From Bacteroidota bacterium (GTDB lineage: Bacteria > Bacteroidota > Bacteroidia > Bacteroidales > DTGW01): 64,000 bases of DNA. Location of the stretch: the NCBI GenBank assembly GCA_029550865.1, contig JAKPGM010000021.1:1-64000 (forward strand). The letters run 5' to 3'. Of this stretch, positions 2,811 through 33,157 are shown piece by piece. Positions within the stretch are counted from its first letter, which is position 1; each line of letters begins with the position of its first letter. The position numbers were made by a program, and so were the translations under genes. The notes beneath the pieces were generated by a model, which saw only the letters and a program-made list of their open reading frames with translations, was not told where the DNA came from and did not search any database.

Positions 2811-3347
2811 AAGCAATAATTGATTATTTATTTTGTGAAAATCATCTTTTTAGTAGCCACTTCATGGCCATCGCTTACAAGGGTATAGTAGTACATTCCT
2901 GGTCTCAGTTCCGAACCATAGATGATTATACTACTCTTTCCTAGCCTTGTTAACGGTATCGACTTTATTTGCATTCCACTCATATCATACAGGTAAATAT
3001 AAGCATTTTTTGTGTTATCTGGGAGGTAGTAATGTATTTGGGTATTTTGATCGAAGGGATTTGGAAAATTTTGTTCTAAGATAGCTAAATCAATATTATT
3101 TTCCTGGCTAATGTTCGTCGTTTCGTTTTCTTCAACTGCTGCTTTTAGTGATGTTTTAGACTTATTTATCAATTTTTTTAGCGAATCAATCTGGTACTGC
3201 TGCTCTTTGATAGCTTCGACCAAAACAGGGATTAATGCTACATAGTTGATTCCATAATATTTTTTTGCTGTATCATATACAACAATTTGGGGTAAAACCT
3301 GCTGTACTTCTTGTGCTACAAATCCCAAACGATTTTTTGTTTCTTTT

Positions 3348-3734
3348 TCATCCGAATAAAATTATTTAATATGTTGAATATTAATTATTTAAACCGTTCT
3401 TCCATTTCGTTGTATGGATAATATTCCCCATTTTATTCATTGTGTGTTTGTGCTTGAGCACAATCATGAAGGTTTCATCCGAATAAAATTATTTAATATG
3501 TTGAATATTAATTATTTACTCCATTTTTTCTATTTCGTTGTATGGATAATATTCCCCCATTTTATTCATTGTGTGTTTGTGCTTAAGCTCAATCATGAAG
3601 GTTTCATCCGAATAAAATTATTTAATATGTTGAATATTAATTATTTAAACCGTTCTTCCATTTCGTTGTATGGATAATATTCCCCATTTTATTCATTTTG
3701 TGTTTGTGCTTGAGTACAATCATGGGGGTTTCAT
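3348..3734 (-). repeat. three tandem ~128-bp repeats, ATGA-bounded family, subtype B
   Basis: Read on the minus strand, three near-identical units of 127, 129 and 127 bp begin at ATGA (3734, 3607, 3478) and share one ATGA at each junction; the last ATGA is 3351-3348. Each starts ATGAAACC, carries a hairpin around TTGTGCT/AGCACAA, then CACAAAC, and ends in an AT-rich tail and TTCGGATGA. The 3' tail aligns with subtype A (3731-3871), so the two are related. Longest open frame per unit is about 28 codons and probably not coding. Confidence 0.85.
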
Positions 3735-3871
3735 CCGAAAATATTATTAAATGTTTTTTAAATCGGTCGGATGGAACTCGCATGTGATGAACTTTCTACA
3801 CATAGGCAAGCATGAAACTGATAAATATTTTCATACTCGTTTGTGAATACTGCCATACATGCTCGTTTCAT
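3731..3871 (-). repeat. ATGA-bounded repeat, subtype A
   Basis: On the minus strand the unit begins ATGAAACGAGCATG at 3871 and ends TTTTCGGATGA at 3731. It is clearly related to the copies at 24454-24590 and 32694-32822. It can fold into two nested stems: ATGGCA (3856-3851) with TGCC-t-AT (3808-3802), and AGTATGAAA (3837-3829) with TTTCATGCT (3817-3809). It is the S74-proximal end of the array, and its first ATGA doubles as codons of the interrupted gene. Confidence 0.85.
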
Positions 3872-24453: not shown

Positions 24454-24590
24454 ATGAAACGAGCATTTATGGCAGAATTCACAAACAAGTATGAAAATAT
24501 TTATCATTTTTGTACTTGCCATGTGTAGGAAACTCATCACATGCGAGTTCCATCCGACCATTAAAAAACTTTAAAAATATTTTCGAATGA
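24454..24590 (+). repeat. ATGA-bounded repeat, subtype A, at S9 peptidase start
   Basis: Starts ATGAAACGAGC at 24454 and ends TTTTCGAATGA, where the last ATGA (24587-24590) is the start codon of the peptidase gene. Nested stems: ATGGCA (24469-24474) with TGCCAT (24517-24522), and AAGTA (24487-24491) with TACTT (24513-24517). A further stem CATGTG/CACATG (24520-24525, 24538-24543) has a loop, GGAAACTC, that could pair with GAGTTCC at 24545-24551. Similar over its length to 3731-3871 (minus strand) and 32694-32822. Confidence 0.85.
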
Positions 24591-32136: not shown

Positions 32137-32655
32137 ATGGAATTGAAGCTGTATCGTAAAAAGTCGCCATGGATACTTCACTATAATGCAGGAAGTTGTA
32201 ATGGCTGTGACATTGAGATATTAGCCTGTTTATCGCCCAAGTACGATGTAGAGCGATTTGGGATGATAAACACGGGCAATCCCAAGCAATCGGATATTCT
32301 CCTTATTACAGGACCTGTGACCAAGCGTTCGCGCGAACGATTAGTAGAAATATATGCCCAGATGCCCGAACCAAAAGTAGTTATATGTTGTGGTTCGTGT
32401 GCTTCAACGGGCGGTGTTTTCCGGGAAATGTATAATATCGAGGGGGGCGTCGATCAAGTTATACCCGTCGATGTATATGTGCCTGGTTGTGCCTGCCGAC
32501 CCGAACAAATTATTGACGGCGTAGTAGCGGCGCTCGAAATTCTGGAAAAGAAAACTAAAGCTATCGAAAAACCTCTGCGTTACGCTAATGACGTTAAGGA
32601 AGAAAATGAACAAGTTAACCGGCGCATCCTACCCGGAACAGTACTCAATAAATAA
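32137..32655 (+). CDS. echC: Ech hydrogenase small subunit C (NuoB-like)
   Basis: 172 residues, carries the proximal [4Fe-4S] cluster. Ligands: NAGSCNGCDIE (Cys21, Cys24), ICCGSCASTGG (Cys85 or nearby) and VPGCACRPEQ (Cys118). It passes electrons from EchF to the [NiFe] site in EchE. Begins 11 bp after echB. The gap to echD is 163 bp, of which about 125 bp is a repeat insertion. Confidence 0.93.
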   Translation: MELKLYRKKSPWILHYNAGSCNGCDIEILACLSPKYDVERFGMINTGNPKQSDILLITGPVTKRSRERLVEIYAQMPEPKVVICCGSCASTGGVFREMYNIEGGVDQVIPVDVYVPGCACRPEQIIDGVVAALEILEKKTKAIEKPLRYANDVKEENEQVNRRILPGTVLNK

Positions 32656-32693
32656 GTTAATTCCTTGATAATGAGGAATAAAAAAGTAACATT

Positions 32694-32822
32694 ATGAAAC
32701 GAACATGTAAGGCGATATTGACAAACAGGCATATAAATTTTACTTCATGCCTACCGATGTTGCCTCTTACATGTAAGTGTAAAAGACCATTTAGAAACAT
32801 TTTAAAAACTATATTCGGATGA
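32694..32822 (+). repeat. ATGA-bounded repeat, subtype A, inside ech operon
   Basis: Starts ATGAAACGAACATG (32694) and ends ATATTCGGATGA, where the last ATGA (32819-32822) is the echD start. Nested stems: ACATGTAAGGC (32703-32713) with GCCT-c-TTACATGT (32762-32774), and AGGCAT (32727-32732) with ATGCCT (32747-32752). These stems use different bases from the copies at 24454 and 3871 but keep pairing and position. Without it, echC and echD would be 38 bp apart. Confidence 0.85.
32694..32822 (+). CDS. possible 42-residue peptide spanning the repeat
   Basis: An open frame runs the full length of the repeat: MKRTCKAILTNRHINFTS at the start, basic with several Cys, ending at TGA inside the terminal ATGA. 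Its stop overlaps the echD start, the arrangement used for translational coupling. The two other subtype A copies begin MKRA but hit stops after 24 and 37 codons, and coding evidence is otherwise lacking. Confidence 0.25.
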   Translation: MKRTCKAILTNRHINFTSCLPMLPLTCKCKRPFRNILKTIFG

Positions 32823-33157
32823 GACGAATAGACCTTCCCCTGGATAAGGTTGTAGAAGAAATCGGGAAATTTTACCAATTCGATAAGCATCATTTCATTG
32901 TGATGAATGCTGTTGATCTGGGCGACTCGATTGAGCTACAATGGTTTTTTGCCGATTATGCAGCTCCTGGCGAGGTAACTATGTTTGCAGCCAGGTCGGA
33001 TGCTTCGCAGTTGATTCCCAGTATTACCAGTGTGGTTCCCTCGGCCTGGGTAGCAGAAGCCGAATTGGTTGACCTGATGGGTATTAACATTGAAAATGCT
33101 AAAAAAGGTTTTGTTCTTGAAGAAGATTTTGAAGGTGCACCTTTAAGAAAGAAATAA
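32819..33157 (+). CDS. echD: Ech hydrogenase subunit D (NuoC-like)
   Basis: 112 residues, peripheral subunit related to the NuoC 30-kDa family. SITSVVPSAWVAEAELVDLMGINI is the recognisable segment. It lacks cofactor motifs. Its ATG is the terminal ATGA of the repeat, so translation may depend on the inserted leader. Ends 5 bp before echE. Confidence 0.85.
   Translation: MRRIDLPLDKVVEEIGKFYQFDKHHFIVMNAVDLGDSIELQWFFADYAAPGEVTMFAARSDASQLIPSITSVVPSAWVAEAELVDLMGINIENAKKGFVLEEDFEGAPLRKK

Follow-up and report, generated by a model that had tools for sequence, protein, structure and literature searches.

The window analysed here, a stretch of 64,000 nucleotides of a Bacteroidota genome, carries an Ech-type hydrogenase operon. 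Pfam matches identify echC and echD, and the neighbouring genes as proton-antiporter, NADHdh, 49-kDa/NiFe and ferredoxin genes. The gap between echC and echD is 163 nt, whereas the other gaps in the operon are an overlap of 20 nt and then 11, 5 and 25 nt. This gap is made up of 38 nt and a 125-bp element, which is placed exactly before the ATGA of echD (Table 1). The flanks of the inserted copy read TAAGTTAATTCCTTGATAATGAGGAATAAAAAAGTAACATT/ATGAAACGAACATG...ACTATATTCGG/ATGAGACGAATAGAC, where a slash marks the end of the element, here and below. The element starts with ATGAAACGAACATG, followed by a long imperfect hairpin and an A/T-rich tail with the 3' terminus TTCGG. Its strand folds better than 200 of 200 shuffled sequences (z -3.3), and the hairpin is intact.

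Table 1. Features of the echC-echD junction and the other element copies in the window
Feature	Position	Strand	Basis
echC (Oxidored_q6)	32137-32655	+	Pfam
Pre-insertion spacer between echC and echD (38 nt), holding GAGGAATAAAAAAGTAACATT, the presumed native initiation region	32656-32693	+	Sequence; relatives
Inserted element, 125 bp	32694-32818	+	Own-genome BLAST, alignment and covariance model; same junction without element in two relatives
42-codon frame (incidental) whose stop overlaps the echD start	32694-32822	+	ORF list; not conserved in other copies
Hairpin, arms ACATGTAAGGC... and ...GCCTCTTACATGT	32703-32774	+	RNA fold (z -3.33); bottom-strand DNA fold pairs the same arms
Degenerate guide region, GTGTAAAAGACC where GTTCCATCCGACC is expected	32777-32788	+	Alignment; guide analysis in other copies
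A/T-rich tail ending in TTCGG, putative initiation region for echD	32789-32818	+	Sequence
Target ATGA (echD start codon plus A)	32819-32822	+	Sequence, congener comparison, flank analysis
echD (Complex1_30kDa), 112-codon frame	32819-33157	+	Pfam; start conserved with G001
Second copy, directly before the start of a 626-codon frame	24454-24586	+	Alignment
Third copy, within an S74/tail-fibre-like frame, then a second repeat type in three tandem units	3735-3871	-	

The initial annotation had placed a repeat between echC and echD, and this is borne out by the matches in the own genome and by the junctions of two relatives. The comparison of ech operons that it proposed was carried out: the echC-echD spacer lacks the element and is 50 nt long in a congener (G001) and 40 nt long in a relative of the same family (G002). 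The annotation had also regarded the terminal ATGA of the repeat as the echD start. The start itself is backed by the congener sequence (MRRIDLPLDKVVEE versus MKRIDLPLDKVVEE), in which the N-terminus of EchD aligns from the same methionine, but the ATGA is the target of the insertion and lies outside the copy.

The inserted sequence belongs to a large family. It matches 40 places in the own genome by BLAST (best non-self E 5.5e-8), and an alignment of 19 copies, the window copy included, extends from 5' ATGAAACGA through 3' TTCGG. The general plan of a copy is /ATGAAACGA..CATG, the hairpin, CATGCGAGTTCCATCCGACC, the A/T tail and CGG/, then ATGA, and the length across the family is about 90-140 bp. 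A covariance model built from the 19 copies detected at least 150 copies (E < 1e-4) in the 2.5-Mb MAG, which is 84% complete. The window copy scored 94 bits (E 1e-14) under this model; since it was among the training copies, independent support for it comes from the BLAST match and the alignment. A short core pattern was found at 140 places in the own genome versus 3 for a reversed control. This core is shared, with a patchy distribution, by Marinilabilia, Anaerophaga, Prolixibacteraceae, Carboxylicivirga and other Bacteroidota. Within the order, 15 of 149 genomes had any match, and only a few (G000 and G069) had many copies. In G000, an element copy marks the very start or end of several contigs (C47, C49, C51, C76 and C79), which makes the element a probable cause of breaks in the assembly. 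No Rfam family matched at its gathering score, all matches being at chance level, and a search for plasmid or phage carriage gave no match. No description of the element was found in the open-access literature, where absence is no proof; it is apparently undescribed, and it is very abundant.

Other repeats were also observed. The third window copy, whose S74-like frame was recognized by inspection of the translated flanks and not by a database match, is directly followed at positions 3346-3731 (minus strand) by three tandem units of about 128 bp, ATGAAACC..CATGATTG..TTTATTCGG/ATGA. This second repeat type has the same 3' terminus as the element. It also follows element copies at contigs C46 and C21, and similar starts (ATGAAACCTCCA) are present at C10 and C18. 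A different repeat of about 150 bp, seen at L208:1280-1436 of Anaerophaga thermohalophila, has dozens of copies in both Anaerophaga genomes.

Comparison with the congener provides empty sites. G001 has one copy genome-wide under the covariance model, versus at least 150 in the own genome. Four further sites of the own genome are syntenic with the G001 contigs that were fetched, and two of them are clear empty sites. At a SusC/SusD-like gene pair, two tandem copies lie immediately in front of ATGA in the own genome, and none in G001. At a small AtpZ-like gene (MKKKKPTTPSQNFALEKENFK versus MKKKGASEPSKNFALEKENFK), the gene start of G001 is without the element. Both gene names come from reading the sequences, not from database matches. 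The remaining two sites have a different gene start or a spacer too divergent for a call. The sites compared between the two Anaerophaga genomes gave no filled/empty pair; they were orthologous, degenerate or at contig ends, hence uninformative.

The insertion point is 5' of ATGA, which follows nearly all 3' termini. Target and placement were analysed in a sample of 16 large contigs of the own genome, amounting to 1.21 Mb or 48% of the MAG. Among 49 solo copies with a readable flank, 35 are followed by ATGAAA and 5 by ATGAAG. Copies also stack head to tail, because the element itself begins with ATGA. The adjoining ATG opens into a called gene in 25 of the 51 solo copies where it could be classified, compared with 441 of 3293 intergenic ATGA sites (13%; odds ratio 6.2, p 1.6e-9) and 119 of 542 ATGAAA sites (22%; p 5.7e-5). 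The gene caller was of a crude codon-score type, and the frame-based test was applied equally to copies and controls. A stricter version demanding the exact called start, which missed many starts, gave 14 of 62 solo copies versus 7.5% of control sites. This excess at start codons may reflect target choice or selection.

The enrichment exactly at start codons would also be expected of a functional leader or uORF module that is kept before genes and couples or regulates their translation, and the window copy, with its overlapping stop and start and its strong hairpin, resembles such a module. The 42-codon frame is present as initially annotated, its TGA overlapping the ATG at 32819. However, coupling as its purpose, which the annotation had suggested, finds no counterpart in the other copies. 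A frame that ends at the ATGA is found in only 5 of 43 full copies from the sampled part of the own genome and, among relatives, in 7 of 32 copies at gene starts. The lengths of the latter are uniform modulo 3 (11:11:10), and their commonest frame has 4 codons (MKRA-stop). Neither reading frame nor length modulo 3 is conserved, and translational coupling as a conserved design was rejected on this ground. Moreover, about half of the solo copies are not at gene starts, a copy (the third in the window) lies within a coding frame, the congener runs the same genes without the element, and no Rfam family corresponds to it. We therefore consider a leader module unlikely. The stop/start layout at echD appears incidental to the element, although it could still matter at echD alone. 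Insertion into an operon, which the annotation had thought unusual, is not so for an element that targets ATGA and very often lies exactly before start codons. As for other signals, no intrinsic terminator-like site was found in the element, and matches to sigma-70 promoters, which may not apply to Bacteroidota, were near chance level; both signals were rejected.

The element contains an internal guide. The hairpin pairs are retained in 99% of cells, and one pair is compensatory. The reverse complement of the guide GTTCCATCCG is CGGATGGAAC, which corresponds to the 3' terminus together with the target (CGG/ATG). The guide is also complementary to the 5' end ATGAAAC, with one A-C mismatch in nearly all copies. 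The last triplet of the guide covaries with the terminal triplet of the element: CCG goes with CGG, CTG with CAG, and CAG with CTG. The combination of guide CTG and terminus CAG is found in G006, G033, G093 and G110. Of 242 copies, 179 have a fully complementary guide and terminus, where 107 would be expected (0 of 5000 shuffles); this permutation treats the copies as independent though they are related. Within Anaerophaga alone, CAG with CTG versus CCG with CGG gave a Fisher p of 6e-4; within G069 alone the covariation is only a trend (8 of 20; 1430 of 20000 shuffles). The covariation had been predicted ahead of the data from G069, G033 and G093, while the examples from G006 and G010 were already in view. 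Since guide and terminus covary, the element fits the guide-directed insertion of the IS200/IS605 type, for which a guide at the foot of a hairpin has been described (PMC6006769). In G069, the composite copies L369, L374, L380 and L381 have the guide CTATACG with the terminus and target CGT/ATAA. They look like copies of one ancestor, were counted as one event and represent a possible retargeting.

What mobilises the element was sought among Y1 genes in 41 genomes: the own genome, 10 relatives, 7 reached via named contigs (one of them apparently a repeat of G002) and a further 24. At none of the Y1 loci that were fetched did a Y1 transposase lie inside element ends, and no autonomous element with the same ends plus a Y1 tnpA was found among the loci read. 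At one Anaerophaga locus (L229), in a copy-dense genome, clear copies and a Y1 gene are separated by a few hundred bases; the other Y1 loci had weak element matches only. By motif-based classification, the Y1 genes of the own genome are subclass-1.2-like only and those of G069 are of the NHWH type only. These classes differ, so no common candidate emerges, and the high-copy genomes have no Y1 subclass in common. A Y1 gene as a linked mobiliser was therefore rejected, as the presence of Y1 does not track the element either. Elsewhere in the own genome (L032; C65, 98256-99651), a Y1 gene precedes an array of GGTAGTCCCGTTAGGGACGAC-like palindromes in what may be a REP/RAYT-type locus.

Alternatively, the family could consist of REP sequences that depend on a RAYT (TnpA-REP), such as one of the Bacteroidetes subclass 2.6 with atypical structures. 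Like REPs, the element is small, intergenic and present in high copy, has a hairpin with a guide at its foot (PMC6006769) and would be expected to depend on a trans-acting enzyme; genes of the subclass 2.6 type (YIH[QN]NP) occur in some hosts. However, it lacks the GTAG/GGAG head, the bottom-strand guide being GGATGGAAC, and its core is conserved over many genera of Bacteroidota, whereas REPs are described as species-specific (PMC6006769). No cognate RAYT was identified, and no subclass 2.6 gene was seen in the many-copy genomes, namely the own genome, G002 and G069. A REP/RAYT system thus seems improbable.

The small size, high copy number and ATGA on both sides would suit a MITE derived from a DDE transposon, the ATGA being a 4-bp target duplication, yet this is very improbable. 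The ends are asymmetric, without terminal inverted repeats (5' ATGAAACGAGC versus CCGAAAATA, the reverse complement of the 3' end). The few copies with ATAA, ATGG or ATGT as the 3' flank still start with ATGA, which argues against target duplication, and covariation of a guide would not be expected. A search of the hosts, which was not exhaustive, revealed no DDE element with the same ends. Equally hard to credit is an origin from an IscB/IsrB element as a solitary omega-RNA or HEARO-type remnant. Such a remnant would share the rule of lying directly 5' of ATGA/NTGA, NTGA being the target-adjacent motif of DtIsrB (PMC9581776), but the element has no protein gene, matches no Rfam family and, at 90-140 nt, is under half the length of the roughly 300-nt IsrB RNA (PMC9581776). 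The HEARO model RF02033 matched neither the own genome and 10 relatives nor any control genome.

We consider it probable that the sequence before echD is a non-autonomous mobile element of Bacteroidota, IS200/IS605-like, inserted exactly 5' of the echD ATGA. It resembles the non-autonomous derivatives of IS200/IS605 (palindrome-associated transposable elements, PATEs) in its asymmetric ends and subterminal hairpin, in that it inserts, without target duplication, next to an invariant tetranucleotide, which reads TCAT on the bottom strand, and in a guide by the hairpin foot that is complementary to target and end. Unlike PATEs, it appears to use a single hairpin and a single guide for both of its ends, no autonomous relative sharing those ends was found, and insertion is very often exactly before start codons. 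The element works like a non-autonomous element of the IS200/IS605 type; we do not file it as a member because no tnpA sharing its ends was found among the Y1 loci read.

The element is most likely mobilised in trans through a single-stranded DNA form, as IS200/IS605 elements are, presumably by an HUH-type mechanism and an enzyme supplied from elsewhere. The bottom strand would read TCAT/CCG, tail, guide (CGGATGGAAC), hairpin and GTTTCAT/, and the guide at the hairpin foot would pair with the left cleavage and target site TCATCCG and with the right end GTTTCAT. As the target ATGA would be kept on insertion, the downstream start codon would survive. At echD, the presumed native initiation region is now 5' of the element's own ATG; it would have been pushed upstream to face the ATGAAA of the element, and the A/T-rich tail would act as the new initiation region, with a possible effect on echD translation. 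The 42-codon frame and the stop/start overlap would be by-products. The guide-at-foot pairing to the ends is lost in the echD copy itself, whose guide region is degenerate (Table 1). This copy is therefore probably decayed and immobile.

A broader and rather doubtful extension is that such elements are mobile start-codon leaders throughout the Bacteroidota. A single guide would read both ends and the ATGA and be retargeted by mutation (CCAT to CTAT and ATGA to ATAA, as in the G069 composites), and the elements, moved by a not-yet-known enzyme, would insert exactly ahead of ATG, so replace the initiation regions of host genes with their own, and rewire translation genome-wide.

In conclusion, the puzzling insertion in the hydrogenase operon is explained as one copy of an abundant element. 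The ATGAAA frames of the element may mislead gene callers in host genomes. The guide and terminus that change together offer a clean natural test of guide-directed target choice, and the family provides hundreds of natural experiments in which the initiation region is replaced and the coding sequence is left untouched.
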